In this document: positions 1 to 59,866 of the stretch, piece after piece
Numbering within the stretch: position 1 is the first letter of the stretch
How the letters are laid out: each line of letters begins with the position of its first letter
Origin: Capillidium heterosporum
Lineage: Eukaryota > Entomophthoromycota > Entomophthoromycetes > Entomophthorales > Capillidiaceae
Assembly (NCBI GenBank): GCA_016630905.1
Contig: WBMQ01000012.1
Coordinates: forward strand, 434,001 to 498,000
DNA length: 64,000 bases
Direction of reading: 5' to 3'
Notes under the pieces: generated by a model
What the model was told of the DNA's origin: nothing
The model's input: the letters and a program-made list of their open reading frames with translations, nothing else
The model's database searches: none
Made by a program: the position numbers and the translations under genes

Positions 1-540
1 AAAGGTGTAAGTATTTGGTAAATCTTTCGATCCTATGAGATTTGTTCGCTTTGTCAATCTTTGCAACTTATAAATTGACATATTTTGATGGGCAGCTAAA
101 GCCAAGCAGAAACTACTTGGTACTGCCCAATTCAAAATTTCGGAAGAGTTGTTCATTGCAGCCCATATCCAAACTTGCTAACTATGCAAAGCTTCTAATT
201 TGTAATTCATCTTCCAATTAGAATTCCCTACCATCTTTAAGCTTTTACTTATACTGCACCTGTTTCAAGTTGCTGCAACAAACCTACATTGCCCATCAAT
301 TTAAATATTAGTTCGATAAGGAAAGCTCAAAAGCAATACAAACTGTTGCAAATATTGTGGAATGGAGCCCTATTAGCATCCTAGTTTTAGGTAAATGCCA
401 ACTTAATATATGTGTAAAAGCTTAATTCCATACACTATTCTAAAGCAGTCTATTTTAAACAATGCTGATCATATAAGCTATCTTAACTTTTATAAACAAT
501 TGTAAACTATTTATACAGGCTTTTATGATCTTAGTATTCA
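1..540. other. Non-coding region upstream of TF1
   Basis: AT-rich, no convincing ORF. It holds the presumed TF1 promoter; no clear TATATAAA box is seen, unlike the secreted-protein genes. Confidence 0.6.
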
Positions 541-2415
541 ATGAGCTCCAAAAAAGAATGCAGTGTTACATCGAGAGTTTCCTGTGATCGATGCAGAAGG
601 CATAGACGAGCTTGCGACAGAGGGATGCCCAGCTGTAGCAGATGTCAACAATCATCAAGTGAATGCAACTACACATCAACCTTCAAATTTATTCCGAAAA
701 ACAAACCGACTTTAGATAGATATCCAGCTTTCAATATAGAACAAAATCAAAAGTCCAAGGGTATAGCACTAGGTGTCTTTGAACAGATGGGGCCCAACAC
801 AAGCCAATTAGAAATAGTCCACTGGCAAAAATCAGCAACCTCAGAGAAGAAAAACCAAGTGGACTTCACCAACAAACCAACTTATATATGGAGGCCACCT
901 AACCAGAATGGTCGATTAAGAGATAGATACCTCCACCCCAAGCTAAAGTTGCAAAGAACAAGCATCAAATTCCATCTGCTTCACGCCTTGTTCAGAAAAT
1001 CCATCTTTGACAACCAAAAGGTATTTGCATTTGGAACCGGGTCCCTAGATTACTACGGCGACAACCCGATGGGTAGATTGATAACGATGTACGTGATCCA
1101 TCACTCCAAGCCCAAATCTCTAGATGAGTTGATTCGAAATAAAAAGAAGGTGTCTACCACTTTACTCCTCCCCATAACTATGTTGGTCGACGCTAAGGAT
1201 TTACAGGATAGGTGCAGTGCGAACTTCATAGTTGGTCGATGTGTTCAAGCCTACTTTCAGTACTACCATCCCCAAGTACCAATAATCAGTAGACGCTCGA
1301 TAGTTGAAAACTTTAAAGGCCATTCGCCAGCGTTGCAAAACATAATATGCTCCATCGGATCCACCTTCATCCCGGAGATGGCTGTCGACATACGGGACTA
1401 CTTCAGCGATACCGCAGTTCGATCGCTTAGAAGCAGGTACTTGGACTGTACGCTCGATAACATAAGTGTACTCATACTGATGTCTGACTTTCAACACGAT
1501 CCCAAGGACTATTCCAATGGATTCTTTAGAATCAGTCACGCCATTCGCATCAGCTACACACTAGGGTTGGATCGAAATCCACCGCCTGGGACTGACCCAG
1601 AAACTACCGAGCTGAGGAACCGAATTTGGTGGTGGTTACATATAAAGGATAAGCTCTATGGGTTTGCAGTTAATAGACCCTTTGCTCACGACTTCCGATT
1701 TAGCACTAGGCCGTTTCCAAAATTTGGTAATATGGATTTTTCCAAGGACGATAGCTCAGAGTACAAATTTGTCATCCGGTGCTCCTGCTTGTACCTGAAG
1801 TTACTGGGAGAGCTCTGCCATATAATGAGTCTTATGATCCTCAAGTTCAAATTCTCAACACGTATTCCCGATTCCGAGTTAGAAGATATCAACAAATTAG
1901 CCCGTGCAACCGGCCAGCATGTAGAGCTATGGGGCCAGAAGGTGCATGCTCAATTTAACGAACTTACCAACGAACATGACCATCGGTATGAAGGTTTGGC
2001 TTCTCCTTTCACTTCCAACTTGAAATTGGCCATGAACTGTGTCCTACTTCAGCTTTATCAGATTTTTTCAAAAGTTAAAGATCAAAGTGTAGTTTCCTAT
2101 TTCAACCAGCAAGCATGCAAAGTAGCCGACAGCACCATCGATATTTCGGTACAAATGGGCAACACCTTCTTACTGTCAAGTATTCCTTACAAGTTCTACT
2201 CCCTCTGCATGGCCAGCCTCTACCAAGTCCGAAACGCAACTTCACAAAATCAAGCACTGGCTTCCAAGTCCAGAGCTAAGTTAAAGTCGGCTTTGCAAAT
2301 CCTTCAGGTGAGCAGAATATACAACAGTTTTGTCGCCGAATGCTACAGTATGGTTACGCTTATGATGAAGGCGGAAAATTTGGATTTGGAAGATGGGTTC
2401 TACAGCATCAATTAG
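541..2415 (+). CDS. Zn(II)2Cys6 fungal transcription factor TF1 (A-type), left copy
   Basis: Predicted nuclear DNA-binding regulator, 624 aa, no introns. The Zn2Cys6 binuclear cluster is at residues 15-42 (C15, C18, C25, C32, C35, C42; spacing C-x2-C-x6-C-x6-C-x2-C-x6-C) with basic residues RRHRR after C18. A linker carries the A-type motif NKPTYIWRPPN at residues 111-121. The middle region has the fungal-specific TF domain signature RNRIWWWLHIKDK, with the three Trp at 363-365. The C-terminus has the family tail KAENLDLEDGFYSIN. It is followed 1.2 kb downstream on the same strand by B-type TF2. Against the right-arm copy there are 9 residue differences; here Gly of FRIG is changed to Ser and ETAELR to ETTELR, both unlike all paralogues, so these are derived changes. 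The target genes are unknown. Confidence 0.93.
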   Translation: MSSKKECSVTSRVSCDRCRRHRRACDRGMPSCSRCQQSSSECNYTSTFKFIPKNKPTLDRYPAFNIEQNQKSKGIALGVFEQMGPNTSQLEIVHWQKSATSEKKNQVDFTNKPTYIWRPPNQNGRLRDRYLHPKLKLQRTSIKFHLLHALFRKSIFDNQKVFAFGTGSLDYYGDNPMGRLITMYVIHHSKPKSLDELIRNKKKVSTTLLLPITMLVDAKDLQDRCSANFIVGRCVQAYFQYYHPQVPIISRRSIVENFKGHSPALQNIICSIGSTFIPEMAVDIRDYFSDTAVRSLRSRYLDCTLDNISVLILMSDFQHDPKDYSNGFFRISHAIRISYTLGLDRNPPPGTDPETTELRNRIWWWLHIKDKLYGFAVNRPFAHDFRFSTRPFPKFGNMDFSKDDSSEYKFVIRCSCLYLKLLGELCHIMSLMILKFKFSTRIPDSELEDINKLARATGQHVELWGQKVHAQFNELTNEHDHRYEGLASPFTSNLKLAMNCVLLQLYQIFSKVKDQSVVSYFNQQACKVADSTIDISVQMGNTFLLSSIPYKFYSLCMASLYQVRNATSQNQALASKSRAKLKSALQILQVSRIYNSFVAECYSMVTLMMKAENLDLEDGFYSIN

Positions 2416-3616
2416 ATGATTTACTCACTTGCATTCATATTAAATGTATGTATCTGACATTTATTTTTGTACAAATACTGCATTTGAACGTTTGCATATT
2501 TATTTATAGTAAATATTTCGAATGTTTCGATTTTAAATATAATCTATTTCTTTATAGAATGATCCTCAGTGACAGTTCAACGCCTTTATCACTTTTCTAA
2601 AGATGAGTGAAACTATAGACAACTTTTAAAGATCATTAAATGCATATTTTTCTAAAACTCAGCTTTTATTGATAGATCATAAATGTGTTGTTAGCCTTTA
2701 ATCTATTAACGTCATATAGGAGGTTGAACCTTTGACTCCTGCTTTTGATTGAAGGTTAGCCGAGACATAAAAGCCAGTTGATGTCAACCGATTTAGAAAT
2801 TAGCACCATACAGTTGAATATTTAATATGTATACATATTTAAAGTGTGGAATGAAAGCAAGGTTTTGCAAAAAGATGTAAATCCTATCTGTTCGATTTAA
2901 GTATTGTACTGAATTGGTTGGATGTATTGCCAGTATAAAAATTGAATTAAAAGTAGATATTGACTGACTATTTAGCTATAAATCGGCTAATAGGATTTTA
3001 ATAGTATTCCTTTGAAAATATCAGAAAGCGCTGTAAAATTGAAAGTCACCCTGCAGAGCTTAGTTTCTTTCAGGTAGCTCGAGGGTGGTATAATTGGTGG
3101 GTCGAAACATTGAAAATTCAAAGCCTACCTGCATAGCCGATGTACAAGTGCTAGTACTGGGACTCAGTTTTGAGATTTCAGTCAAAAGGTAATACTCCCC
3201 TCCGAAATACTTGCATGTAGGCTTAAATGAGTTGAAGCTTTTGAAGGGAATAAGATTTTAAACTGTAATTGCTGAAAATTAGCTTATGTACATATTACAA
3301 AAGCGAACTGTTGAGTAAAGCTGGTATTTCAAACTTGGTCCGATTTAAGCTACATAGAACGTACTGTTGCATGGAAATATTCTTCAAAGTGAACATACTA
3401 TTCTGTTCAGTATTATTTTGCAATGGTTTACACATTTGTTTTAAATAAAGCTACAAAGAAATGCTGAGCAAAGTAGTAAAGTTCATATATACCATGCAAA
3501 GTTCTTGAATCTAGTTGCAAATCCTCTGATTTCAGTAATGCTCATTTAGTAATTGCCTAAAGATAATAGGAGCATTTTGAATCAGCTTGAACTCTTAAAT
3601 TTTAATAGCCACTACC
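2416..3616. other. Intergenic region TF1-TF2
   Basis: 1.2 kb of AT-rich DNA without a credible gene. The small ORF at 2340-2600 overlaps the end of TF1 in another frame and is not supported. Confidence 0.6.
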
Positions 3617-5473
3617 ATGGAAAAGAAAGCTTTATCATTGCTTTCCTGTGATAAGTGTAGGGATCAAAAGACGTACTGTAGCAAGGAGCTCCCTAGCTGT
3701 GGAAGATGCCAACATAAATCCATCGAATGTACATATACTTATGTACCTAGAAGACTGCCGACAAGCAAGCTAAAAAAATATCCAGGTGCATCATCTAATC
3801 GAGCAATAGGCGACTTAAACTTCAAAAGTCTGACTTGTATTGATTTTAAAAATGCAGAAGTGGCCACCACATATCAACTAGAAGCAAGTCAAAGTGGTAA
3901 GTCAAAGAAGCCGGAGATAAAGTTGGAGGACAGGGCGTTAAGGGTATGGAAGTCTAAGAGTAGTGGAGGTTTGGTAAATGCAGCCGTTCACTCGGAGCTG
4001 CCTCTAGAGTACGTGAATGCCAAGTTTGGTTTGATACATACCTTGTTTCGAAACTCCATATTAGATACCAAGCAAAAGGTATTCGTGTTTACGACCGGAT
4101 CCTTGGACTACTATGGTGACAACCCAGTTGGTAGAATGATAACGATGTATGTGGTCCATCAATCCAAACCTAAAACTTTATATGAGTTGGCTAGGCGTGA
4201 AAAAACAGTATTCTCCACCGTACTCCTTCCCATAACCAAGTTAATTGATGCAAAGAGCTTACAGGATAAGTACAGCGCAAATTTCATAGTCAGCAAGTGC
4301 ATTAAGGCCTATTTCCAGCACTGGCACCCTCAGCTACCAATAGTCAATAGACGCTCGATAGTCGAAAATTTTGAAAGCCATTCCCCAGCACTGCAAAACA
4401 TAATATGCTCCATTGGATCCACATTCATCACAGAGATGTCAGACGATATACGCGACTACTTTAGCAACATCGCAGTCAAAGCGTGCGAAGACTGCTATTT
4501 AAACTGTACTTTGGACAACATCAGTGCCCTTTATCTAATGTCCAGCTTCCAGCACAATCCTAAGGATTACTCTAAAGGCTTCTTCAGGATCGGTCTTGCC
4601 ACTCGAATCAGCTACGCCCTAGGGTTGGACAGAGATCCGCCACCTGGGACCGACAAAGAGACCATAGAACTTAGGAATCGGATCTGGTGGTGGTTGCACA
4701 TAAAGGACAAGTTCTTTGGGTTCGGGATCAACAAGCCATTCGCCCACGATTTTCGATATAGCACCAGGCCACCTCAAAAGTTTAGTACGATGGACTGTTC
4801 CAAGGATGATGGTGTAGACTATCAATTTGCCATGCATTGTTCTTGCCTGTACACCAAGTTCCTCGGCGAGCTCTGCCACTTTATGGAGCTGTTGGTTGTC
4901 AAGTTTGAATTCTCGAGCCGCATCCCCGATTCCAAGTTGGGTGCTGCCAACCGGCTAGCTCGTGTGACTGGTGAACATATAAAGCTGTGGGAGCAGAAAG
5001 TATACGCCAATTTCAGAGAGCTGGTTCGAAATAACGGGAGTTGGGCCGAAGATGTAGCCTTCCTTTTCACATCGAACTTGAAACTGGCTATAAACTCGGT
5101 ACTGCTCCAACTGTACCAAATGTTTCTGAAGGTCAGCGACCAAAGTATCGCCTCCTACTTTATTGAGGAAGCTGGTAAGGTAGCGGACAGCACCATTGAT
5201 ATCTCAGTACGAATGAAAAGTCACTTCTTCCTCTCCGGGTTCCCTTACCGGTTCTACCCCCTCTGTATGGCCACCCTCTACTTGATTAGGAATGCTACTT
5301 CGAAAAATAAAGATTTAGCTGACAAGTCCATAGAGAGCTTGAAGTCCGCTTTGAGGATCCTTCAGGCCAGCAAAGTTTATAGCAGTTTAGCTGCTGAGTA
5401 TTGGCGTGTAGCTTTGCTTATGGTAAAGGCGGAGAATTTGGATTTGGGAGATGGGTTCTATAATATAGACTAA
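3617..5473 (+). CDS. Zn(II)2Cys6 fungal transcription factor TF2 (B-type), left copy
   Basis: Predicted nuclear regulator, 618 aa, intronless. The start ATG has a good context (CTACCATGG). The zinc cluster is C11, C14, C21, C28, C31, C38 and has the B-type signature QKTYC instead of the A-type RRACD. The linker has TCIDF at 73-77 and then a stretch ending in a WKSK-like motif; the fungal TF domain has WWW at 357-359 within RNRIWWWLHIKDK; the C-terminal tail is KAENLDLGDGFYNID. It differs from the right-arm copy at only 5 residues, all in the first about 125: K instead of R between C11 and C14, Pro/Ser after YTYV, two Val/Ala-Thr/Ala changes, and Glu/Lys before LPLEYVNAKFG. The rest of the protein is identical, an uneven pattern suggesting conversion between arms. 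It is the best donor candidate for the conversion tract seen in left TF3. Confidence 0.93.
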   Translation: MEKKALSLLSCDKCRDQKTYCSKELPSCGRCQHKSIECTYTYVPRRLPTSKLKKYPGASSNRAIGDLNFKSLTCIDFKNAEVATTYQLEASQSGKSKKPEIKLEDRALRVWKSKSSGGLVNAAVHSELPLEYVNAKFGLIHTLFRNSILDTKQKVFVFTTGSLDYYGDNPVGRMITMYVVHQSKPKTLYELARREKTVFSTVLLPITKLIDAKSLQDKYSANFIVSKCIKAYFQHWHPQLPIVNRRSIVENFESHSPALQNIICSIGSTFITEMSDDIRDYFSNIAVKACEDCYLNCTLDNISALYLMSSFQHNPKDYSKGFFRIGLATRISYALGLDRDPPPGTDKETIELRNRIWWWLHIKDKFFGFGINKPFAHDFRYSTRPPQKFSTMDCSKDDGVDYQFAMHCSCLYTKFLGELCHFMELLVVKFEFSSRIPDSKLGAANRLARVTGEHIKLWEQKVYANFRELVRNNGSWAEDVAFLFTSNLKLAINSVLLQLYQMFLKVSDQSIASYFIEEAGKVADSTIDISVRMKSHFFLSGFPYRFYPLCMATLYLIRNATSKNKDLADKSIESLKSALRILQASKVYSSLAAEYWRVALLMVKAENLDLGDGFYNID

Positions 5474-6330
5474 CTATCGATAGCCATATGCATTCCAAAA
5501 GGTTGGTGAAACTTACATTTGTTCGTAACACTGTAAGCTTTAACATACCATTATATTGTGTAGAAATATAAATTCAGCCAGCGATCCTTACCATTGTCAA
5601 TATTTACAACAGCTTTGAAAGCGCGTTTAAATAGACTGATGCCAGCAACAAATTCACTTCACTAGGAACTTTATTAGACAATGCTGATAGAATTAAATCA
5701 TCGGGACTAACTTTCCTATCAATTAATCGATAAAAGCATCTACATTCAAGTGCTCTTTCGATGAAGGTAAGGATTTCAAATCAAAAGGTTGAAATATGTT
5801 CTCATTAGTACAGTACTAAAAAGCTCAAGGGTACAATATAAAGTAGAGCGTAGTTTAAAAGAACTAGTACCGTTGCAACAGTATAGCAAATCTATAAAAA
5901 TAATTTATACACTATATGTATCGATATAATACTGTTCAAATAAACTTTACATGGCTATCTACGTATGATTCCCTTTCCTCTTATTTAACCAAAGTTATCG
6001 TTGGCAGCAGAATCCTTAATATCATTAAACCCAATGAACCTACTTCGCCTTATTAGTTATGATAGCAACTATACTCTAACTGGAAATGGAAAACATCAAC
6101 CTATGTTTAATATATCGCTGCATTTGAGCCTATATCTCATTAAGTTGCTATAAATGGCTGATATGAATTGCTGGATGATGCTCAAAATTTGAGGAATATG
6201 GCATCAATTTGAAACTGCTGAGCTTTTAAAACTCTTGACGCTTAGTAACTTATCTTCATTGAAGTTGTGGCTGGAAAGTAGAAATGGAATTGGTAATAAA
6301 AGAAATGTAACCAAATGAAAGGAGAGGACT

Positions 6331-6430
6331 ACAAGTTTATTACAACCAATTTTACCTTGTACACTATTCAGACATGCTATTCTCACGGTATGTTAGTAGC
6401 TTCTTGTACCATTTATTTGTTACTGTTGCA
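6331..6430. other. Conserved non-coding block downstream of TF2 (left)
   Basis: About 100 bp nearly matching 12848-12948 downstream of TF4, although surrounding sequence has drifted. The best-kept core reads ATTCAGACATGCTAT then CACGGTATGTTAGTAGC. On the minus strand the core contains TACTAAC followed by a CAG/TAG-like acceptor, resembling an intron 3' end. No reading frame is shared between copies. The mirror copies in the right arm are at 52581-52680 and 46063-46163. Confidence 0.5.
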
Positions 6431-7449
6431 AGTTAAAAGTTTGAGAACCTTAGATTGCTTTAAATTAGACAGTCGCTATAAAAACATGCAGTTTTGTTAA
6501 AGCGAATAGTTCCCTTGCTTTTAAGTCCAAATATATGGAAATTAAAATGACTAGATAGTTTTCTTGGATATAGAAAAGTATCTCTGCCGCTTTAATTTAA
6601 TTGGATTTAGTATCCCAAATATCAGGTAAAAGCTTGGTATTAAAGGGTCGTTTCTTCTTGACCTTTGCAATTATATTAGAAGCCTCCAATGTTGACAGTA
6701 TTGCTTACCCGAAATTCCATTCTATTCAATTAAGTTTAGTAAAGGCAAAAGCTAGGCAATGAGATTGGTAAAACTAAGAAAACTGATAGTCGATTGTAAT
6801 TGGATGGACTATAGCCTGCATTTCCTCAACAAAAGTTAGCATAAGGCGAACAGGCAGATTAGCATAAAGCCATAATTGAATTCAGTATAGAGCCTTATCC
6901 CATTCTATGAAGTTGATTCACTTATACACTGTAGTGTTTCTTAAGGTATCAGGCTAGCTAACCATTTGATCAAAGATAACTTCAATCCAAATGCTAACAA
7001 TTATAGATAGCTATTATTTCCAACTTTTTACAAGCACTTTTAGTTGAAATACACTCTAGTTAGATATGTGGCTGATAAATAGCTTGTTGCTCTGCTTGCA
7101 TAAATAGGGTAATTTACTACAAGTCCAAATGTAAAATTCTCAACCTTATATGAACAGTATTATATTTAACTTGTCCAGCTCTTTTTTGGCCAAAACTTTA
7201 TGTTACAAGGCACTGGTCAATCGATGATACTGATGCAAATCTAAAAGGTTTGTACCTCTGTCAATGATTTGGTACCATGTGGTCTTTTATTCGATAAAAG
7301 CAAACGCTAATCTATCGATACAAAGCAAATACAACGATAGAGGCAAAAGTAATAGTTGGTAGTGCTAGATGGACTCATAATTCAACTTCAAAGCCCAAAA
7401 CTTTAGAAAAGTTTTACGTTTAAGCTTTTGAACAATAGTTGAATCTGAA

Positions 7450-7463
7450 TCCGAATATTCGGA
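7450..7463. promoter_or_regulatory. Perfect palindrome TCCGAATATTCGGA upstream of TF3
   Basis: A 14-bp perfect palindrome carrying everted CGG triplets (CCG-N6-CGG), the kind of half-site pair bound by dimeric Zn2Cys6 proteins. It is 325 bp upstream of the TF3 start. It is conserved at 51548-51561 in the other arm. A 14-bp palindrome alone can occur by chance in a window this size. Confidence 0.3.
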
Positions 7464-7787
7464 CCCACCTAACACTCAGTTTAGCACTTTGGAAGAGCTG
7501 CTCGCTATAATGCAGATGCAAATTGTATCTACCTATACAGTGCTAAAACCTTTAGCAAAGCACTCTGTTCCTTTAAATGGGTATGTTTATTACAATTGAA
7601 TTTTAGAAATTTAGACAGGTTTTCATAGATTGGCAGCCAAAAGCTTAATTGTACCCATCGCTATAAAGCAATTATTCTTGCATATAGCTGCAACACATCT
7701 TATTCTAGAATTGCCAAACTTGCATAGACAACTATAAATCTATTTCCAGAAGCTATTTGAACAGCCTTATTTCCAAGGACTATCAAT

Positions 7788-9653
7788 ATGGAGCATGTTG
7801 GTATATCAAAAGCTTCTTGTGACCGATGTAGAAGGCATAAGCGAGCCTGCGACCGAAAGATCCCCAACTGTGGAAGATGCCAACAATCATCAGTTGGATG
7901 TAAATACACATCAACCTTCAAAATAGTTTTGAATGATCAGCAGAAATTAAATGAATCTTCAACTTTCAGTCCTGGAATACGGAATCCAAGGTGCAAGAAT
8001 ATAGCACTAGGAGTCTTTGAACGGATGATGCCGGACACATGTCAATTAGAAATGAGCTATTGGCAGGAATCTGCAACACCAAAGAAAAATCAGGTGGATT
8101 TCGTCAACAAACCGACTTATATATGGAGGCCTCCCAACAAGAAATATGTGCCAAGAGATAGATTCTTCCGGCCCAAACTAGCTTTAGAACAGACAGGTAT
8201 CAAGTGCAGCTTAATCCACACGCTATTTCGCAACTCTATATTGGACAACAGCCAAAAGGTATTCGTATTTACTACTGGATCCCTAGATTATTACGGTGAC
8301 AACCCAGTAGGTAGGTTGATAACGATGTATGTGGTCCACCACTCTAGGCCCAAAACTTTGAATAAACTGGTTGCATGCAAAAGAACAACATCCTCGACCA
8401 TACTCCTTCCTATAACCAAGTTAGTTGATGCAAAGAGCTTACAGGATAAGTACAGCGCAAATTTTATAGTCAGCAGGTGCATTAAGGCCTATTTCCAGCA
8501 CTGGCACCCACGGTTACCGATAGTTAATAGACGTTCATTACTTGAAACCTTTGAAAGCCATTCTCCAGCACTTCAAAGCATAATATGCTCTATAGGATCC
8601 ACTTTTATCCCGGAGATGACCACAGGCATACGAGACCATTTCAGCAAGGCTGCGGTCAAATCACTCAACACCACCTACTTGGACTGTACGTTGGATAACA
8701 TCAGCGCCCTGTTCCTGATGTCCAGCTTCCAACATGACCCAAAGGACTACTCGAAAGGATTCTCCAGGATCGGCCTTGCCATTCGCATCAGCTACACTTT
8801 GGGACTAGATAGGGACCCCCCACATGGAACCGACTTGGAGACAATAGAGCTTCGAAACCGGATCTGGTGGTGGCTGCACATAAAGGACAAGTTCTTTGGA
8901 TTTGCAGTCAACAAGCCTTTCACCCACGACTTTAGGTTTAGTACCAGGCCGTTCCCAAAGCTGAGTACAATGGACTGCTCTAAAGATGACGATGAAAAGT
9001 TTAGGTTCTCAATGCAGTGTTCCTGTCTGTACACTAAGCTGTTGGGAGAATTGTGCCACTTCATGGATCTTCTAGTCCCCAAGTTCAAATTCTCTACCCA
9101 CATCCCCAATTCAAAATTAAAAACTGCCAATCGATTAGCTCGTGCGACTGGTCAGCATCTAGAGTTCTGGGAACAGAAGGTGTGCACCCAGTTTAGAGAA
9201 CTCGTTAGCAGCAATGGCGGTCAGTGCGAAGATGTAGCTTCACTCTTTATATCGAATTTAAAGCTGGCTATGAATTCAGTCCTACTCCAGCTGTATCAAG
9301 CATTTTCGAAGATCAGCGATCGATCCATCTCCTCCTACTTTACGAAAAAGGCTGGTAAGGTAGCAGAAAACACAATCAACGTCTCGGTAAGGATGGGGAA
9401 CGATTTCTTCCTCTCCGGTTTCCCATACAAGTTCTACCCTCTATGCATGGCCACCCTCTACCAGATTAGAAATGCTACCTCAAAAGCCAAAGATCTAACT
9501 GTCAGGCCCATAGCGAATTTGAAGGCCGCTTTGAGGATACTTCAGACAGGTAGAGTTTACAGTAGTTTGGCTGCTGAGTATTGGCGCATGGCCATGCTCA
9601 TGGTGAAGGCAGAGAGCCTGGACTTGGGTGATGATTTTTACAATATTAGTTAG
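7788..9653 (+). CDS. Zn(II)2Cys6 fungal transcription factor TF3 (A-type N-terminus, B-like C-terminus), left copy
   Basis: Predicted nuclear regulator, 621 aa, intronless. The zinc cluster CDRCRRHKRACDR starts at residue 10, and the A-type linker includes ALGVFERM, then NKPTYIWRPPN. From about residue 142 (LIHTLFRNSILD) onward the protein is closer to B-type TF2: STMDCSKDD, LWEQ/FWEQKV, FFLSGFPY, SLAAEYWR. WWW is at 360-362 and the tail is KAESLDLGDDFYNIS. So the DNA-binding end and the C-terminal half have different nearest relatives. Nucleotides 8421-8509 almost equal TF2 4241-4329 but not TF3 of the right arm, marking a conversion tract (residues about 212-240). Outside this tract the two TF3 copies differ at only about seven residues. 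It lies 412 bp before TF4. Confidence 0.93.
   Translation: MEHVGISKASCDRCRRHKRACDRKIPNCGRCQQSSVGCKYTSTFKIVLNDQQKLNESSTFSPGIRNPRCKNIALGVFERMMPDTCQLEMSYWQESATPKKNQVDFVNKPTYIWRPPNKKYVPRDRFFRPKLALEQTGIKCSLIHTLFRNSILDNSQKVFVFTTGSLDYYGDNPVGRLITMYVVHHSRPKTLNKLVACKRTTSSTILLPITKLVDAKSLQDKYSANFIVSRCIKAYFQHWHPRLPIVNRRSLLETFESHSPALQSIICSIGSTFIPEMTTGIRDHFSKAAVKSLNTTYLDCTLDNISALFLMSSFQHDPKDYSKGFSRIGLAIRISYTLGLDRDPPHGTDLETIELRNRIWWWLHIKDKFFGFAVNKPFTHDFRFSTRPFPKLSTMDCSKDDDEKFRFSMQCSCLYTKLLGELCHFMDLLVPKFKFSTHIPNSKLKTANRLARATGQHLEFWEQKVCTQFRELVSSNGGQCEDVASLFISNLKLAMNSVLLQLYQAFSKISDRSISSYFTKKAGKVAENTINVSVRMGNDFFLSGFPYKFYPLCMATLYQIRNATSKAKDLTVRPIANLKAALRILQTGRVYSSLAAEYWRMAMLMVKAESLDLGDDFYNIS
8421..8509 (+). other. 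Apparent ectopic gene-conversion tract in TF3 (left copy)
   Basis: By eye there are about three differences from TF2 at 4241-4329 over 89 bases, but roughly twenty from the allelic-position TF3 in the right arm. Immediately downstream (from CACGGTTACCGATAG) left and right TF3 are identical again. This is a short patch copied from TF2 or its right-arm twin. Confidence 0.75.
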
Positions 9654-10065
9654 GTTGCTTACATTAATTTGCTCTGAGTGTGTATATTGTTATTAAGTAG
9701 GTTTATATATAAAGCTTTAGCCACGTTATAGATTTTATATTCATGGTTAATTACACATTTTCAATGGGTTTATGAATGCTTTATTTATAATTGGCACAAA
9801 TTGCTTCAATACTAAGTGCAATAACCAAATGGATTGAGATTTGGTAGGCCAATAGGCTAGAGTGTGGTGTTCAGAAATGCTGTAGGAAAAGGCATGGTTA
9901 AATTCAGTGTTTTAGTTTTTAAACAAAGCATTCAATATGCCGCATTCAGTGGGGAAATGAGTATGAAACCTCCGATCCCGAGCTCACGAGATAAGTGACC
10001 ATCCAAAGCTATGAAAGAACCATTTCGAATTTGAAGAAAGCTTAAAGGTTCAGACAGATGCCACC
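9654..10065. other. Intergenic region TF3-TF4
   Basis: 412 bp. It holds CCGATCCCG at 9972-9980, which on the minus strand is two direct CGG triplets (CGG-GAT-CGG), about 85 bp before the TF4 start: a possible but unproven Zn2Cys6 site. Confidence 0.4.
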
Positions 10066-11937: not shown

Positions 11938-12847
11938 CTATATATAGGTCTATGTATTCCAAAAACCCATTTAAGCTATATTGATTTGTAGTGTTATCAT
12001 TTAACATATCGCTATACCAATTTCCAAATTCTCTAATAATGCACGTATACCTTTGGTTTATAAAAACGATCCTTGCCATTGTCAATATGTATAGTAAATC
12101 TAAAAGGCATACTTAAAGAAGCCTATGCCTACTTGTGGATACACTTCATCCGGAATTTTCCTAAACTACATTGATAGAAGTTATACTGTCGAGACTGTCT
12201 TTTTGTTGCAAGTTCTTATTTCCTTATTAATTTGTCAATAAAGCATTTTCATACAACTACCTTTTAGATTTAAATAAAAATATCAACCAAATTTTGGACT
12301 ACATTCCCAGCAGCTATGTAGTAGAAATATTAAAAGCACAACTATAAAGTAGAATATGATTTAAAAGAAACAGCACTATTATCACAAAGCATTATGTTTA
12401 TAAAATATCTACCGGGTATATGGACTAACAATGTATCACTATCAAACACTTGGAGCTGTTTAAATAATCTCTACATGGCCGGTTATATGCTCTTGCATTT
12501 GCCTGTTTGATGGAATCTACAAAAATAAATAATTTAGTAAGCCATTTACCGTTAGTAGAAATACCATTAATGTCATCAAATAAAAGTCAAATCTAATTCA
12601 TTCCACTAGCCAGTAACAATTGCATTCTAACTAGAAAGGAAAATACCAACCTACATTTAACTATACTGCTGAACTTGAGTCTATATCACATTAGATTGGA
12701 ATGAATAGTTGATGTGGATCTCTGAATGGAGTTTGGGCCTTTCAACTGCCACCGATTGGTCACTTGATTGAACATCGAAGTTGGAGTTGGAAAGTAGAAA
12801 TGGAGTTGAAGATGAATGAAGTTTAACTAAATAAAAAGAAAAGGGCC

Positions 12848-12948
12848 GCAAATTTATTACAAACAAGTTTACCTCGTACAATATTCAGACATGCTATCCT
12901 TACGGTATGTTAGTAGCTTCTTGTACTCATTTGTTTGTTACGGCTGCT
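12848..12948. other. Conserved non-coding block downstream of TF4 (left)
   Basis: Partner of 6331-6430. The core ATTCAGACATGCTAT and ACGGTATGTTAGTAGC are retained while flanks differ. Function unknown; see the TF2 copy. Confidence 0.5.
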
Positions 12949-13911: not shown

Positions 13912-13920
13912 TATAAAATA
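13912..13920 (+). promoter_or_regulatory. TATA box of trypsin-like protease gene (left)
   Basis: TATAAAATA starting 56 bp upstream of the ATG at 13968. It belongs to the set of TATA boxes 43-75 bp before the start codon of the secreted-protein genes in this window. Confidence 0.6.
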
Positions 13921-46062: not shown

Positions 46063-46163
46063 AGCAGCCGTAACAAACAAATGAGTACAAGAAGCTACTA
46101 ACATACCGTAAGGATAGCATGTCTGAATATTGTACGAGGTAAACTTGTTTGTAATAAATTTGC
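46063..46163. other. Conserved non-coding block downstream of TF4 (right)
   Basis: Mirror of 12848-12948, same core sequences. Confidence 0.5.
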
Positions 46164-48945: not shown

Positions 48946-49357
48946 GGTGGCATCTGTCTGAACCTTTAAGCTTTCTTCAAATTCGAAATGGTTCTTTCAT
49001 AGCTTTGGATGGTCACTTATCTCGTGAGCTCGGGATCGGAGGTTTCATACTCATTTCCCCACTGAATGCGGCATATTGAATGCTTTGTTTAAAAACTAAA
49101 ACACTGAATTTAACCATGCCTTTTCCTACAGCATTTCTGAACACCACACTCTAGCCTATTGGCCTACCAAATCTCAATCCATTTGGTTATTGCACTTAGT
49201 ATTGAAGCAATTTGTGCCAATTATAAATAAAGCATTCATAAACCCATTGAAAATGTGTAATTAACCATGAATATAAAATCTATAACGTGGCTAAAGCTTT
49301 ATATATAAACCTACTTAATAACAATATACACACTCAGAGCAAATTAATGTAAGCAAC
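48946..49357. other. Intergenic region TF3-TF4 (right)
   Basis: 412 bp mirror of 9654-10065, retaining the CGGGATCGG motif (at 49031-49039) upstream of TF4. Confidence 0.4.
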
Positions 49358-51223: not shown

Positions 51224-51547
51224 ATTGATAGTCCTTGGAAATGAGGCTGTTCAAATAGCTTCTGGAAATAGATTTATAGTTGTCTATGCAAGTTTGGCAA
51301 TTCTAGAATAAGATGTGTTGCAGCTATATGCAAGAATAATTGCTTTATAGCGATGGGTACAATTAAGCTTTTGGCTGCCAATCTATGAAAACCTGTCTAA
51401 ATTTCTAAAACTCAATTGTAATAAACATACCCATTTAAAGGAACAGAGTGCTTTGCTAAAGGCTTTAGCATTGTATAGGTAGATACAATTTGCATCTGCA
51501 TTATAGCGAGCAGCTCTTCCAAAGTGCTAAATTGAGTGTTAGGTGGG

Positions 51548-51561
51548 TCCGAATATTCGGA
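51548..51561. promoter_or_regulatory. Perfect palindrome TCCGAATATTCGGA upstream of TF3 (right)
   Basis: Mirror copy of 7450-7463, unchanged. Candidate Zn2Cys6 operator, unproven. Confidence 0.3.
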
Positions 51562-52580
51562 TTCAGATTCAACTATTGTTCAAAAGCTTAAACGTAAAAC
51601 TTTTCTAAAGTTTTGGGCTTTGAAGTTGAATTATGAGTCCATCTAGCACTACCAACTATTACTTTTGCCTCTATCGTTGTATTTGCTTTGTATCGATAGA
51701 TTAGCGTTTGCTTTTATCGAATAAAAGACCACATGGTACCAAATCATTGACAGAGGTACAAACCTTTTAGATTTGCATCAGTATCATCGATTGACCAGTG
51801 CCTTGTAACATAAAGTTTTGGCCAAAAAAGAGCTGGACAAGTTAAATATAATACTGTTCATATAAGGTTGAGAATTTTACATTTGGACTTGTAGTAAATT
51901 ACCCTATTTATGCAAGCAGAGCAACAAGCTATTTATCAGCCACATATCTAACTAGAGTGTATTTCAACTAAAGGTGCTTGTAAAAAGTTGGAAATAATAG
52001 CTATCTATAATTGTTAGTATTTGGATTGAAGTTATCTTTGATCAAATGGTTAGCTAGCCTGATACCTTAAGAAACACTACAATGTATAAGTGAATCAACT
52101 TCATAGAATGGGATAAGGCTCTGTACTGAATTCAATTATGGCTTTATGCTAATCTGCCTGTTCGCCTTATGCTAACTTTTGTTGAGGAAATGCAGGCTAT
52201 AGTCCATCCAATTACAATCGACTATCAGTTTTCTTAGTTTTACCAATCTCATTGCCTAGCTTTTGCCTTTACTAAACTTAATTGAATAGAATGGAATTTC
52301 GGGTAAGCAATACTGTCAACATTGGAGGCTTCTAATATAATTGCAAAGGTCAAGAAGAAACGACCCTTTAATACCAAGCTTTTACCTGATATTTGGGATA
52401 CTAAATCCAATTAAATTGAAGCGGCAGAGATACTTTTTCTATATCCAAGAAAACTATCTAGTCATTTTAATTTCCATATATTTGGACTTAAAAGCAAGGG
52501 AACTATTCGCTTTAACAAAACTGCATGTTTTTATAGCGACTGTCTAATTTAAAGCAATCTAAGGTTCTCAAACTTTTAAC

Positions 52581-52680
52581 TTGCAACAGTAACAAATAAA
52601 TGGTACAAGAAGCTACTAATATACCGTGAGAATAGCATGTCTGAATAGTGTACAAGGTAAAATTGGTTGTAATAAACTTG
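52581..52680. other. Conserved non-coding block downstream of TF2 (right)
   Basis: Mirror of 6331-6430 with a change of TACTAAC to TACTAAT in the core. Confidence 0.5.
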
Positions 52681-53537
52681 TAGTCCTCTCCTTTCATTTG
52701 GTTACACTTCTTTTATTACCAATTCCATTTCTACTTTCCAGCCACAACTTCAATGAAGATAAGTTACTAAGCGTCAAGAGTTTTAAAAGCTCAGCAGTTT
52801 CAAATTGATGCCATATTCCTCAAATTTTGAGCATCATCCAGCAATTCATATCAGCCATTTATAGCAACTTAATGAGATATAGGCTCAAATGCAGCGATAT
52901 ATTAAACATAGGTTGATGTTTTCCATTTCCAGTTAGAGTATAGTTGCTATCATAACTAATAAGGCGAAGTAGGTTCATTGGGTTTAATGATATTAAGGAT
53001 TCTGCTGCCAACGATAACTTTGGTTAAATAAGAGGAAAGGGAATCATACGTAGATAGCCATGTAAAGTTTATTTGAACAGTATTATATCGATACATATAG
53101 TGTATAAATTATTTTATAGATTTGCTATACTGTTGCAACGGTACTAGTTCTTTTAAACTACGCTCTACTTTATATTGTACCCTTGAGCTTTTTAGTACTG
53201 TACTAATGAGAACATATTTCAACCTTTTGATTTGAAATCCTTACCTTCATCGAAAGAGCACTTGAATGTAGATGCTTTTATCGATTAATTGATAGGAAAG
53301 TTAGTCCCGATGATTTAATTCTATCAGCATTGTCTAATAAAGTTCCTAGTGAAGTGAATTTGTTGCTGGCATCAGTCTATTTAAACGCGCTTTCAAAGCT
53401 GTTGTAAATATTGACAATGGTAAGGATCGCTGGCTGAATTTATATTTCTACACAATATAATGGTATGTTAAAGCTTACAGTGTTACGAACAAATGTAAGT
53501 TTCACCAACCTTTTGGAATGCATATGGCTATCGATAG

Positions 53538-55394
53538 TTAGTCTATATTATAGAACCCATCTCCCAAATCCAAATTCTCCGCCTTTACCATAAGCAAAGC
53601 TACACGCCAATACTCAGCAGCTAAACTGCTATAAACTTTGCTGGCCTGAAGGATCCTCAAAGCGGACTTCAAGCTCTCTATGGACTTGTCAGCTAAATCT
53701 TTATTTTTCGAAGTAGCATTCCTAATCAAGTAGAGGGTGGCCATACAGAGGGGGTAGAACCGGTAAGGGAACCCGGAGAGGAAGAAGTGACTTTTCATTC
53801 GTACTGAGATATCAATGGTGCTGTCCGCTACCTTACCAGCTTCCTCAATAAAGTAGGAGGCGATACTTTGGTCGCTGACCTTCAGAAACATTTGGTACAG
53901 TTGGAGCAGTACCGAGTTTATAGCCAGTTTCAAGTTCGATGTGAAAAGGAAGGCTACATCTTCGGCCCAACTCCCGTTATTTCGAACCAGCTCTCTGAAA
54001 TTGGCGTATACTTTCTGCTCCCACAGCTTTATATGTTCACCAGTCACACGAGCTAGCCGGTTGGCAGCACCCAACTTGGAATCGGGGATGCGGCTCGAGA
54101 ATTCAAACTTGACAACCAACAGCTCCATAAAGTGGCAGAGCTCGCCGAGGAACTTGGTGTACAGGCAAGAACAATGCATGGCAAATTGATAGTCTACACC
54201 ATCATCCTTGGAACAGTCCATCGTACTAAACTTTTGAGGTGGCCTGGTGCTATATCGAAAATCGTGGGCGAATGGCTTGTTGATCCCGAACCCAAAGAAC
54301 TTGTCCTTTATGTGCAACCACCACCAGATCCGATTCCTAAGTTCTATGGTCTCTTTGTCGGTCCCAGGTGGCGGATCTCTGTCCAACCCTAGGGCGTAGC
54401 TGATTCGAGTGGCAAGACCGATCCTGAAGAAGCCTTTAGAGTAATCCTTAGGATTGTGCTGGAAGCTGGACATTAGATAAAGGGCACTGATGTTGTCCAA
54501 AGTACAGTTTAAGTAGCAGTCTTCGCACGCTTTAACTGCGATGTTGCTAAAGTAGTCGCGTATATCGTCTGACATCTCTGTGATGAATGTGGATCCAATG
54601 GAGCATATTATGTTTTGCAGTGCTGGGGAATGGCTTTCAAAATTTTCGACTATCGAGCGTCTATTGACTATTGGTAGCTGAGGGTGCCAGTGCTGGAAAT
54701 AGGCCTTAATGCACTTGCTGACTATGAAATTTGCGCTGTACTTATCCTGTAAGCTCTTTGCATCAATTAACTTGGTTATGGGAAGGAGTACGGTGGAGAA
54801 TACTGTTTTTTCACGCCTAGCCAACTCATATAAAGTTTTAGGTTTGGATTGATGGACCACATACATCGTTATCATTCTACCAACTGGGTTGTCACCATAG
54901 TAGTCCAAGGATCCGGTCGTAAACACGAATACCTTTTGCTTGGTATCTAATATGGAGTTTCGAAACAAGGTATGTATCAAACCAAACTTGGCATTCACGT
55001 ACTCTAGAGGCAGCTTCGAGTGAACGGCTGCATTTACCAAACCTCCACTACTCTTAGACTTCCATACCCTTAACGCCCTGTCCTCCAACTTTATCTCCGG
55101 CTTCTTTGACTTACCACTTTGACTTGCTTCTAGTTGATATGCGGTGGCCGCTTCTGCATTTTTAAAATCAATACAAGTCAGACTTTTGAAGTTTAAGTCG
55201 CCTATTGCTCGATTAGATGATGCACCTGGATATTTTTTTAGCTTGCTTGTCGGCAGTCTTCTAGATACATAAGTATATGTACATTCGATGGATTTATGTT
55301 GGCATCTTCCACAGCTAGGGAGCTCCTTGCTACAGTACGTCTTTTGATCCCTACACCTATCACAGGAAAGCAACGATAAAGCTTTCTTTTCCAT
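53538..55394 (-). CDS. Zn(II)2Cys6 fungal transcription factor TF2 (B-type), right copy
   Basis: 618 aa, same domains as the left TF2. Five differences, all before about residue 130: CDRC (family consensus) for CDKC, YVSRRL, EAATAYQ and VHSKLP. Residues after that are identical between the arms. Confidence 0.93.
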   Translation of the reverse strand: MEKKALSLLSCDRCRDQKTYCSKELPSCGRCQHKSIECTYTYVSRRLPTSKLKKYPGASSNRAIGDLNFKSLTCIDFKNAEAATAYQLEASQSGKSKKPEIKLEDRALRVWKSKSSGGLVNAAVHSKLPLEYVNAKFGLIHTLFRNSILDTKQKVFVFTTGSLDYYGDNPVGRMITMYVVHQSKPKTLYELARREKTVFSTVLLPITKLIDAKSLQDKYSANFIVSKCIKAYFQHWHPQLPIVNRRSIVENFESHSPALQNIICSIGSTFITEMSDDIRDYFSNIAVKACEDCYLNCTLDNISALYLMSSFQHNPKDYSKGFFRIGLATRISYALGLDRDPPPGTDKETIELRNRIWWWLHIKDKFFGFGINKPFAHDFRYSTRPPQKFSTMDCSKDDGVDYQFAMHCSCLYTKFLGELCHFMELLVVKFEFSSRIPDSKLGAANRLARVTGEHIKLWEQKVYANFRELVRNNGSWAEDVAFLFTSNLKLAINSVLLQLYQMFLKVSDQSIASYFIEEAGKVADSTIDISVRMKSHFFLSGFPYRFYPLCMATLYLIRNATSKNKDLADKSIESLKSALRILQASKVYSSLAAEYWRVALLMVKAENLDLGDGFYNID

Positions 55395-56595
55395 GGTAGT
55401 GGCTATTAAAATTTAAGAGTTCAAGCTGATTCAAAATGCTCCTATTATCTTTAGGCAATTACTAAATGAGCATTACTGAAATCAGAGGATTTGCAACTAG
55501 ATTCAAGAACTTTGCATGGTATATATGAACTTTACTACTTTGCTCAGCATTTCTTTGTAGCTTTATTTAAAACAAATGTGTAAACCATTGCAAAATAATA
55601 CTGAACAGAATAGTATGTTCACTTTGAAGAATATTTCCATGCAACAGTACGTTCTATGTAGCTTAAATCGGACCAAGTTTGAAATACCAGCTTTACTCAA
55701 CAGTTCGCTTTTGTAATATGTACATAAGCTAATTTTCAGCAATTACAGTTTAAAATCTTATTCCCTTCAAAAGCTTCAACTCATTTAAGCCTACATGCAA
55801 GTATTTCGGAGGGGAGTATTACCTTTTGACTGAAATCTCAAAACTGAGTCCCAATACTAGCACTTGTACATCGGTTATGCAGGTAGGCTTTGAATTTTCA
55901 ATGTTTCGACCCACCAATTATACCACCCTCGAGCTACCTGAAAGAAACTAAGCTCTGTAGGGTGACTTTCAATTTTACAGCGCTTTCTGATATTTTCAAA
56001 GGAATACTATTAAAATCCTATTAGCCGATTTATAGCTAAATAGTCAGTCAATATCTACTTTTAATTCAATTTTTATACTGGCAATACATCCAACCAATTC
56101 AGTACAATACTTAAATCGAACAGATAGGATTTACATCTTTTTGCAAAACCTTGCTTTCATTCCACACTTTAAATATGTATACATATTAAATATTCAACTG
56201 TATGGTGCTAATTTCTAAATCGGTTGACATCAACTGGCTTTTATGTCTCGGCTAACCTTCAATCAAAAGCAGGAGTCAAAGGTTCAACCTCCTATATGAC
56301 GTTAATAGATTAAAGGCTAACAGCACATTTATGATCTATCAATAAAAGCTGAGTTTTAGAAAAATATGCATTTAATGATCTTTAAAAGTTGTCTATAGTT
56401 TCACTCATCTTTAGAAAAGTGATAAAGGCGTTGAACTGTCACTGAGGATCATTCTATAAAGAAATAGATTATATTTAAAATCGAAACATTCGAAATATTT
56501 ACTATAAATAAATATGCAAACGTTCAAATGCAGTATTTGTACAAAAATAAATGTCAGATACATACATTTAATATGAATGCAAGTGAGTAAATCAT
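55395..56595. other. Intergenic region TF1-TF2 (right)
   Basis: 1.2 kb mirror of 2416-3616. No supported gene. Confidence 0.55.
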
Positions 56596-58470
56596 CTAAT
56601 TGATGCTGTAGAACCCATCTTCCAAATCCAAATTTTCCGCCTTTATCATAAGCGTAACCATACTGTAGCATTCGGCGACAAAACTGTTGTATATTCTGCT
56701 CACCTGAAGGATTTGCAAAGCCGACTTTAACTTAGCTCTGGACTTGGAAGCCAGTGCTTGATTTTGTGAAGTTGCGTTTCGGACTTGGTAGAGGCTGGCC
56801 ATGCAGAGGGAGTAGAACTTGTAAGGAATACTTGACAGTAAGAAGGTGTTGCCCATTTGTACCGAAATATCGATGGTGCTGTCGGCTACTTTGCATGCTT
56901 GCTGGTTGAAATAGGAAACTACACTTTGATCTTTAACTTTTGAAAAAATCTGATAAAGCTGAAGTAGGACACAGTTCATGGCCAATTTCAAGTTGGAAGT
57001 GAAAGGAGAAGCCAAACCTTCATACCGATGGTCATGTTCGTTGGTAAGTTCGTTAAATTGAGCATGCACCTTCTGGCCCCATAGCTCTACATGCTGGCCG
57101 GTTGCACGGGCTAATTTGTTGATATCTTCTAACTCGGAATCGGGAATACGTGTTGAGAATTTGAACTTGAGGATCATAAGACTCATTATATGGCAGAGCT
57201 CTCCCAGTAACTTCAGGTACAAGCAGGAGCACCGGATGACAAATTTGTACTCTGAGCTATCGTCCTTGGAAAAATCCATATTACCAAATTTTGGAAACGG
57301 CCTAGTGCTAAATCGGAAGTCGTGAGCAAAGGGTCTATTAACTGCAAACCCATAGAGCTTATCCTTTATATGTAACCACCACCAAATTCGGTTCCTCAGC
57401 TCGGCAGTTTCTGGGTCAGTCCCAGGCGGTGGATTTCGATCCAACCCTAGTGTGTAGCTGATGCGAATGGCGTGACCGATTCTAAAGAATCCATTGGAAT
57501 AGTCCTTGGGATCGTGTTGAAAGTCAGACATCAGTATGAGTACACTTATGTTATCGAGCGTACAGTCCAAGTACCTGCTTCTAAGCGATTGAACTGCGGT
57601 ATCGCTGAAGTAGTCCCGTATGTCGACAGCCATCTCCGGGATGAAGGTGGATCCGATGGACCATATTATGTTTTGCAACGCTGGCGAATGGCCTTTAAAG
57701 TTTTCAACTATCGAGCGTCTACTGATTATTGGTACTTGGGGATGGTAGTACTGAAAGTAGGCTTGAACACATCGACCAACTATGAAGTTCGCACTGCACC
57801 TATCCTGTAAATCCTTAGCGTCGACCAACATAGTTATGGGGAGGAGTAAAGTGGTAGACACCTTCTTTTTATTTCGAATCAACTCATCTAGAGATTTGGG
57901 CTTGGAGTGATGGATCACGTACATCGTTATCAATCTACCCATCGGGTTGTCGCCGTAGTAATCTAGGGACCCGGTTCCAAATGCAAATACCTTTTGGTTG
58001 TCAAAGATGGATTTTCTGAACAAGGCGTGAAGCAGATGGAATTTGATGCTTGTTCTTTGCAACTTTAGCTTGGGGTGGAGGTATCTATCTCTTAATCGAC
58101 CATTCTGGTTAGGTGGCCTCCATATATAAGTTGGTTTGTTGGTGAAGTCCACTTGGTTTTTCTTCTCTGAGGCTGCTGATTTTTGCCAGTGGACTATTTC
58201 TAATTGGCCTGTGTTGGGCCCCATCTGTTCAAAGACACCTAGTGCTATACCCTTGGACTTTTGATTTTGTTCTATATTGAAAGCTGGATATCTATCTAAA
58301 GCCGGTTTGTTTTTCGGAATAAATTTGAAGGTTGATGTGTAGTTGCATTCACTTGATGATTGTTGACATCTGCTACAGATGGGCATCCCTCTGTCGCAAG
58401 CTCGTCTATGCCTTCTGCATCGATCACAGGAAACTCTCGATGTAACACTGCATTCTTTTTTGGAGCTCAT
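56596..58470 (-). CDS. Zn(II)2Cys6 fungal transcription factor TF1 (A-type), right copy
   Basis: 624 aa, same domains as the left TF1. Nine differences, including Ile for Ser just before the fourth zinc-cluster Cys (GMPICSRC), and Trp for Cys in NIIWSIG where six of the seven family members have Cys. The Gly of FRIG and Ala of ETAELR, lost in the left copy, are kept here. The start codon lies at the mirror of 541. Confidence 0.92.
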   Translation of the reverse strand: MSSKKECSVTSRVSCDRCRRHRRACDRGMPICSRCQQSSSECNYTSTFKFIPKNKPALDRYPAFNIEQNQKSKGIALGVFEQMGPNTGQLEIVHWQKSAASEKKNQVDFTNKPTYIWRPPNQNGRLRDRYLHPKLKLQRTSIKFHLLHALFRKSIFDNQKVFAFGTGSLDYYGDNPMGRLITMYVIHHSKPKSLDELIRNKKKVSTTLLLPITMLVDAKDLQDRCSANFIVGRCVQAYFQYYHPQVPIISRRSIVENFKGHSPALQNIIWSIGSTFIPEMAVDIRDYFSDTAVQSLRSRYLDCTLDNISVLILMSDFQHDPKDYSNGFFRIGHAIRISYTLGLDRNPPPGTDPETAELRNRIWWWLHIKDKLYGFAVNRPFAHDFRFSTRPFPKFGNMDFSKDDSSEYKFVIRCSCLYLKLLGELCHIMSLMILKFKFSTRIPDSELEDINKLARATGQHVELWGQKVHAQFNELTNEHDHRYEGLASPFTSNLKLAMNCVLLQLYQIFSKVKDQSVVSYFNQQACKVADSTIDISVQMGNTFLLSSIPYKFYSLCMASLYQVRNATSQNQALASKSRAKLKSALQILQVSRIYNSFVAECYSMVTLMIKAENLDLEDGFYSIN

Positions 58471-59866
58471 TGAATACTAAGATCATAAAAGCCTGTATAA
58501 ATAGTTTACAATTGTTTATAAAAGTTAAGATAGCTTATATGATCAGCATTGTTTAAAATAGACTGCTTTAGAATAGTGTATGGAATTAAGCTTTTACACA
58601 TATATTAAGTTGGCATTTACCTAAAACTAGGATGCTAATAGGGCTCCATTCCACAATATTTGCAACAGTTTGTATTGCTTTTGAGCTTTCCTTATCGAAC
58701 TAATATTTAAATTGATGGGCAATGTAGGTTTGTTGCAGCAACTTGAAACAGGTGCAGTATAAGTAAAAGCTTAAAGATGGTAGGGAATTCTAATTGGAAG
58801 ATGAATTACAAATTAGAAGCTTTGCATAGTTAGCAAGTTTGGATATGGGCTGCAATGAACAACTCTTCCGAAATTTTGAATTGGGCAGTACCAAGTAGTT
58901 TCTGCTTGGCTTTAGCTGCCCATCAAAATATGTCAATTTATAAGTTGCAAAGATTGACAAAGCGAACAAATCTCATAGGATCGAAAGATTTACCAAATAC
59001 TTACACCTTTAAACACTCATCAGCTATCCACCTACTACTGCAAAAAGTAAACTTAACTGATAGAACTATAAACCTGAACTGGGTCACTTTAATTCCGAGC
59101 CTATTGCTTCCTTGCTTAGAGAATTTAGAATACTAAAAGCGATATGATATATAAAATGGAAGTAGTGTAAGTAGGCCTAGAATCTATACGTCCAACTATG
59201 TGAAGCCATCCAAAACTTAAATGTAAATTCAGCACTACTATTAGTTGCAATCAAGTGTGTAGCTATTCTTTTTAGAGGTTATATCTAAATCTGTCAAGCA
59301 CCTATCTCAGCTTTTGATGCGTAGATTTGTTTTTTCTCTTACGAAACTCAAATCGAGGAATCTTTGATCCATAGACTATCGCTATATGTTCCAAAACAGA
59401 CAGAATAGTACACTTAAATAAATGATAGTATCCTTTTATTTTGGAATTGAATTTGCAAGCCCATCTATAAATCTAGATATATTAGACCTAATTAATTATA
59501 AACAGTGTAGCAGTAACTTTTGATTACTGTCTTAGCTTGTGGTATCGAACGATGGCTGGCGACTTTATATATTTTGAGACCTTTTTATAAAGTTAGAACT
59601 CTGTTCAGAGATTTTGAACAGATTCTCACTATTGAGTTATAAAAACTTGCCCAGATTTCCTGAACAGTTATGAGCCAAGGAACCGAACTTTGGAATTCCT
59701 ATATCCTGATTGAAAACCATCGATTTGAAAAATAAATGGATCTGATACAACTATAGCCTTATAAATATCAGAAAACTATATACGCATTATGTATATAGCC
59801 AAATATACAAATTAAAAGTTGGCGGTACATATATTAAGAAAACAACATATATTTTATTGAAAAGTA
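58471..59866. other. Non-coding region TF1-SCR2
   Basis: 1.4 kb. Up to 59010 it mirrors the window start; beyond that it is not duplicated within this window. The ORF at 58855-59136 straddles the mirror limit and has no recognisable domain; not accepted. Confidence 0.55.

Follow-up and report, generated by a model that had tools for sequence, protein, structure and literature searches.

A gene-bearing palindrome with 32-kb arms in the fungus Capillidium heterosporum: a probable inverted duplication with patchy conversion between the arms

The persistence of large gene-bearing palindromes has been debated mainly for sex chromosomes. A stretch of 64,000 nucleotides from the fungus Capillidium heterosporum (assembly GCA_016630905.1, contig WBMQ01000012.1, positions 434,001 to 498,000 of the forward strand), called the window here, carries a cluster of genes for zinc-cluster regulators, a trypsin-family protease and a tyrosinase-domain protein twice, in opposite orientations. 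This raises the question whether the structure is real, how it was formed and what keeps its two copies alike. We consider it probable (about 0.7) that the locus is a palindrome with inverted arms of 32 kb on either side of a 14-kb spacer, that it originated when part of a tandem gene cluster was duplicated in inverted orientation, and that patchy conversion between the arms has since kept them alike.

Geometry and gene content of the palindrome

The genome assembly comprises 29.5 Mb in 44 contigs, and the window corresponds to C4:434001-498000 on contig C4 of 1.48 Mb. Positions without a contig name are window coordinates, where 0 is the base preceding the window and negative values lie to the left of it. 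When the window was compared with itself by BLAST, 36510-59010 aligned to 22500-1 on opposite strands over 22,504 columns with 99.476% identity and 111 mismatches. This agrees with the initial annotation, which had described by eye that the genes of 1-22500 recur inverted at 36510-59010 around a spacer of 14 kb, measured here as 14,009 bases. With 30 kb of flank added on each side, however, the arms ran beyond both window edges, and -9543..22500 paired with 68555..36510 over 32,051 columns with 99.354% identity. The arms are therefore 32 kb long and not 22.5 kb as first proposed, the palindrome ends on the right at 68,555 and not at 59,010, and the divergence is about 0.6% instead of about 1 percent. 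A match of 32 kb at 99.35% identity is no chance event. In a global alignment, 195 substitutions (165 transitions) and 12 gap columns separated the arms. Directly past all four arm boundaries the neighbouring sequences, when aligned, were unlike each other.

1..22500, plus strand, with 9,544 further bases left of the window (C4:424457-456500): left arm, from self-BLAST with flanks; its outer end at C4:424457 was seen again in the outer-junction search
22501..36509, no strand: spacer, from self-BLAST, with regulators E, F and G, one small cysteine-rich gene and an amidase-domain (GatA-like) exon
36510..64000, minus strand, continuing to 68,555 (C4:470510-502555): right arm, the inverted copy of the left arm, from self-BLAST

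Each arm contains five Zn_clus and Fungal_trans (Zn2Cys6) regulators named Z, A, B, C and D, four small cysteine-rich genes, a trypsin, a tyrosinase and a decayed tyrosinase. Pfam was run on regulators A to D, and Z, which lies to the left of the window, was assigned by its match to D and by alignment. The four open reading frames (ORFs) of about 600 residues in the left arm within the window, and Z outside it, all have open partners in the right arm. Together with the trypsin and the tyrosinase, all seven compared gene pairs were open in both arms. The trypsin pair showed no difference between the arms, and the other six pairs differed at 3 to 42 sites. The claim that every ORF is full-length and intact holds for these seven pairs but not for the tyrosinase copy at about 18.5-19.7 kb, which is broken in both arms.

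541..2415 (plus) and 56596..58470 (minus): gene A, Zn_clus and Fungal_trans regulator (Pfam; arm alignment)
3617..5473 (plus) and 53538..55394 (minus): gene B, Zn_clus and Fungal_trans regulator (Pfam; arm alignment)
7788..9653 (plus) and 49358..51223 (minus): gene C, Zn_clus and Fungal_trans regulator, the right copy without the B-like tract described below (Pfam; arm alignment)
10066..11937 (plus) and 47074..48945 (minus): gene D, Zn_clus and Fungal_trans regulator (Pfam; arm alignment)
13968..14786 (plus) and 44225..45043 (minus): trypsin-family protease (PF00089)
15807..17000 (plus) and 42010..43203 (minus): tyrosinase-domain protein (PF00264)
18525..19656 (plus) and 39354..40485 (minus): decayed tyrosinase copy with equal stop counts in both arms (tyrosinase genome search)

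Uneven divergence in the window and on two other contigs

The left copy of gene C contains a short tract that resembles gene B.

8412..8511, plus strand: B-like tract in left gene C, identical to gene B at 96 of 100 positions versus 74 of 100 in the right copy

Beside the tract, genes C and B agree at 355 of 612 (58%) and 844 of 1139 (74%) positions. Between 8421 and 8498 the two arms differ at 24 sites, and at 23 of these gene B has the base of the left copy. Since the left copy is B-like and the right copy is without the tract, left gene C likely took it from B or a near relative by ectopic conversion after the arms had separated.

To analyse the remaining 171 differences between the arms, the 24 sites of the tract were excluded. 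The variance-to-mean ratio per 500 bases was 2.3, compared to 0.98 in 5,000 shuffles (p 0.0002), and the longest run without a difference was 1,807 bases (p 0.008). The outer 1.5 kb of the arms held 31 differences versus 140 in the remaining 30.5 kb (Fisher p 9e-11), and divergence was 4.5 times higher at this outer edge. This outer part was also more diverged than the inner, mostly intergenic sequence (36 differences in 10,983 bases), and the difference counts along the arms showed no rise at the inner edge. A diverged outer edge is what conversion that is unable to pass the boundary would leave; the chief alternative is an origin in two steps.

When the genome was searched with gene D, 74 matches were obtained. 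Near-identical pairs on the same contig were found on C3, C9 and C4, and at all three loci the pair is inverted, a number too small to show a bias. The C3 arms (639444-647868 and 669738-678170) are 95.74% identical in sequence comparison. From the outer to the inner end of these 8.4-kb arms, the differences per kb were 6, 0, 3, 2, 9, 30, 108 and 121, with 46 in the final 0.4 kb. The diverged part contains 293 differences in 2,674 bases, and one 500-base island within it holds only 6 (binomial p 5e-18, uncorrected for the choice of window). The two C3 regulators have a synonymous divergence (dS) of 0.27 and a nonsynonymous divergence (dN) of 0.06 overall. Codons 151-250 nevertheless show no difference at all, and synonymous changes flank this stretch on both sides. 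Since protein constraint would leave synonymous changes in place, the plain reading of this pattern is a tract copied from arm to arm by gene conversion. The C3 pair is the most telling on the mechanism, as arms that are 11% apart in one part and nearly identical in another point to conversion.

The C9 arms (106767-116789 and 129950-140019) are 99.24% identical, and more inverted pieces lie close by. Here, the first 1.03 kb has 27 differences along with a gap some 49 columns long, and the next 9 kb has a single difference. Within C9:98613-140019, nested inverted pieces of up to 99.97% identity were observed, along with DDE transposase, MULE and Gti1/Pac2 regulator domains. The C9 structure is more tangled than the palindrome in the window.

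The C3 arms thus show a clear mosaic, whereas the arms of the window show overdispersed differences and a diverged edge, for which there are other possible causes. The proposal that conversion keeps the arms alike is supported most clearly by C3 and also by C9, but less directly within the window itself, where conversion would operate as the C3 pair indicates there. If so, the edge divergence of about 2% would be nearer to the true age of the duplication than the 0.3-0.5% found elsewhere in the arms.

Assembly, age and origin

The initial annotation had named a mis-assembly that joins two haplotypes head to head as a serious alternative. Four stretches of 1.0-2.5 kb at the flanks and spacer ends were searched for second copies in the genome. 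From the left flank, a 1.5-kb stretch whose end lies 456 bases from the boundary had one match, which was itself. The right outer junction had six matches, consisting of itself, its left-arm partner and four short weak repeats. The inner left junction matched itself and its right-arm partner, and the inner right junction had 50 matches, which were itself, its left-arm partner and 48 short dispersed repeats. No second copy of either flank or of either spacer end was found in these stretches. Because the neighbours at the four boundaries are unlike and the sampled flanks and spacer ends have no second copy, a simple head-to-head join of haplotypes fits poorly. Both ends of both arms enter different sequence within a 1.48-Mb contig, and a join would itself require a haplotype in which the arm is connected to the other end of the spacer. 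A doubled assembly would also give partners of equal score to other genes, but the six best of the 79 tyrosinase matches, counted outside the locus (547.4, 273.9, 240.7, 237.4, 227.0 and 201.8 bits), have none. Near-equal scores mark duplicates for high-scoring matches only, as many low-scoring trypsin and tyrosinase matches are alike without being duplicates; for a C8/C1 tyrosinase pair at 94.9 and 95.8 bits the scores alone cannot decide.

The assembly does include small contigs, and some contig starts recur. The start of C1 (C1:1-150) is found again at C8:95806-95955 with 100% identity over 150 bases, and C10:1-150 and C13:1-150 share an identical 150 bases, so the assembly is partly redundant or has duplicated ends. 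Over the 1,653 aligned columns of the C1/C8 overlap there are 9 gap openings but no mismatch. The two contigs differ there by gaps alone, in contrast to the palindrome arms, where substitutions dominate. Judged by score, a further five near-equal regulator pairs connect C1 with C8 and another connects C10 with C13; the five C1/C8 pairs have unequal scores within 3 bits, and the overlap may hold substitutions elsewhere. With a telomere-linked duplication in view, a pattern of four TTAGGG repeats was searched for and had no match anywhere in the genome, so this pattern does not mark the contig ends. With unlike boundaries, single-copy flank and spacer ends in the sampled stretches, differences that are mainly substitutions, and a related inverted duplication on C3 with 11% divergence between parts of its arms, the evidence leans against a mis-assembly, which we regard as improbable.

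It is unlikely, in our view, that the palindrome is a real but young inverted duplication without continuing conversion, formed in one event or in two steps that lengthened the arms, with the 0.6% divergence reflecting its age. Identity is high throughout, gap columns are few and all seven compared gene pairs are open, as expected for a young duplication, and a two-step origin would also yield a more diverged outer edge. The differences between the arms, however, are overdispersed even without the B-like tract, and the mosaic arms on C3 are not produced by one event.

Several observations weigh against a palindrome with arm-to-arm conversion. The structure is known from the assembly, and this is redundant at one place at least, the C1/C8 overlap. 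The genome DNA searches scored the best candidates and skipped very common words, so the absence of more copies is not absolute. In the window, the case for conversion is the unevenness of the divergence, for which uneven mutation or an origin in two steps could also account, and homogenisation is incomplete because the B-like tract, confined to the left arm, was not passed to the right arm. C9 is a small contig of 155 kb that could be tangled. A special tie of palindromes to the regulator family is at most a possibility, because the C3 and C9 pairs came from a search that used the regulator as its query.

If the palindrome exists in the cell as assembled, the inverted duplication of part of the tandem cluster would have occurred by a template switch with little homology, during replication or break repair, and selection may keep the extra dose and the mixing of the regulators and secreted proteins. 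The joints in the window share few bases. No long repeat was found at its boundaries, of which three were searched genome-wide and the left outer one genome-wide to within 456 bases, with the last 456 bases compared to 124 kb of locus sequence. Since the shared bases are few and the searched boundaries are free of long repeats, a template switch or an end-joining event that needs little homology would fit, by analogy to such rearrangements elsewhere. One short repeat occurs close to two boundaries: one copy lies about 0.5 kb from the right-hand inner junction, the other 2.5 kb past the right outer boundary.

35911..35993, no strand, with a second copy at 71034-71122: short dispersed hairpin-forming repeat of about 85 bases (self-match on both strands, many genome sites)

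At C3 and C9, repeats abut some of the boundaries (C3:638728-639456 and C9:116787-117246), and because of these adjoining repeats the route of formation may differ from that in the window. A dispersed repeat of about 1 kb was observed near the duplication boundaries on both contigs (C3:637687-638737; C9:87426-88468, 117672-118684 and 140295-141304) and also at C4:523954-524995. Two ORFs inside it have no Pfam match. The abutting repeats, together with the DDE transposase domain in the C9 arms, would suit a mobile element that carried the regulator family and duplicated the block, the inverted layout being a by-product. For the window, we consider this highly improbable, since no repeat adjoins its boundaries in the stretches searched genome-wide, and no transposase domain was detected among the scanned arm ORFs, element profiles not having been run on the whole block.

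The palindrome also contains indications of which arm came first. The spacer carries the following genes.

24970..25587, plus strand: exon of a GatA-like amidase gene (PF01425, E 3.2e-51)
26861..28726, minus strand: regulator E (Pfam)
30535..30813, plus strand: member of the 93-residue cysteine-rich protein family (family search)
30950..32821, minus strand: regulator F (Pfam)
33900..35780, minus strand: regulator G (Pfam)

All regulators of the right arm and the spacer (Z', A', B', C', D', G, F and E) are read in the same direction on the minus strand. The small cysteine-rich genes extend past the right arm, whereas the region from C4:97268 to the left arm has none of the 27 matches to this family in the genome. 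Both points speak tentatively for the right arm as the original; the argument from orientation would be undone if recombination between the arms had flipped the spacer.

Known palindromes, possible meaning and further genes

Palindromes with conversion are already known from sex chromosomes; this one stands apart as fungal, gene-rich and recurring with one regulator family. For the human Y palindrome P6, conversion tracts of about 2 kb on average and rare inversions were reported from 378 Y chromosomes (PMC3723533). The human palindromes likewise have large inverted gene-bearing arms around a spacer, but the identity given there is above 99.9% and comes with population data, compared to 99.35% from one fungal assembly here (PMC3723533). 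The springtail Folsomia candida is reported to have 11 palindromes within scaffolds, with 17 reported for the rotifer Adineta vaga, and for the Dscam2 palindrome of the springtail the synonymous divergence is 0.2 (PMC5490193). As in the window, gene clusters lie there in inverted duplication within scaffolds, but both animals are described as parthenogenetic (PMC5490193).

The initial annotation considered such a structure unusual in a fungus. This holds only in part, as a large palindrome has been published for Zymoseptoria tritici, located within 500-550 kb of chromosome 14 in insertions that the authors call virtually devoid of genes (PMC3681731). It is compared by its authors with the human Y palindromes, but it is flanked by Copia remnants, whereas the arms described here are gene-rich and have no repeat at the searched boundaries (PMC3681731). 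At the level of literature listings, no nuclear palindrome was found for Conidiobolus. Long inverted repeats in Candida albicans are described as bounding copy-number gains under antifungal selection (PMC7371428). These are also fungal inverted repeats and act as recombination sites there, but the copy-number gain under antifungal selection is a feature of that system (PMC7371428). Human inverted duplications with a single-copy spacer show short junction homology, and template switching or end joining with low homology was proposed for them (PMC3907307, PMC10766186). In these cases, too, the inverted copy is kept apart from its source by sequence of normal copy number (PMC3907307, PMC10766186), but they are recent disease rearrangements, and for the window a fold-back or an origin-dependent template switch is an analogy only.

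A wider reading, which we offer tentatively and hold to be rather doubtful, is that the palindromes act as an engine of diversification away from any sex chromosome. Inverted duplication would repeatedly capture one Zn2Cys6 clan with its secreted-protein neighbours, and conversion, both between arms and between tandem paralogues, would repair and shuffle the copies and give mosaic regulators. With three or more inverted duplications in one regulator family, differing in apparent age and with mosaic tracts that can be read, such a fungus would be a small genome suited to measuring conversion between arms, the length of its tracts and its loss at the edges. Conversion also distorts the ages and relationships that are inferred inside such gene families.

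The left-flank ORFs that were scanned include two M14 carboxypeptidases and an MFS transporter, and those of the right flank include a piece of a glycoside hydrolase family 5 gene and a glycogen debranching enzyme. When proteins outside this genome were searched with gene D, none of 5,936 candidates reached E 0.001. The genome contains 106 trypsin matches besides the 79 for tyrosinase, with fragments and single exons counted. For comparison, 90 trypsins, 55 tyrosinases and 67 genes with a fungal transcription-factor domain are given for the Conidiobolus coronatus genome (PMC12387763). A MYG1 protein encoded on C3 matches Neoconidiobolus thromboides best, at 56% identity and 418 bits, with Mycoemilia scoparia (395 bits) and further fungi behind it. 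Kinship of the genome with Conidiobolus is thus likely.

The small cysteine-rich genes of the right arm are mirrored to the left of the window.

59870-60139, minus strand: small cysteine-rich gene
61392-61670, plus strand: small cysteine-rich gene
62307-62582, minus strand: small cysteine-rich gene
63722-64000, plus strand: small cysteine-rich gene

Their proteins are predicted by eye to be secreted, based on a hydrophobic start. The family has a length of about 93 residues, and the copy that was scanned had no Pfam match. A search of 5.8 billion proteins gave just five relatives at E 0.001, which are two Purpureocillium lilacinum entries (82% identity), Mucor velutinosus, Backusella circina and one further contig. 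Because this kinship is patchy, the family could have been transferred between distant fungi. Two decayed fragments of the family, at C4:91595-91708 and C4:97154-97267, have equal scores and lie 5.6 kb apart on opposite strands, perhaps as another small inverted duplication.

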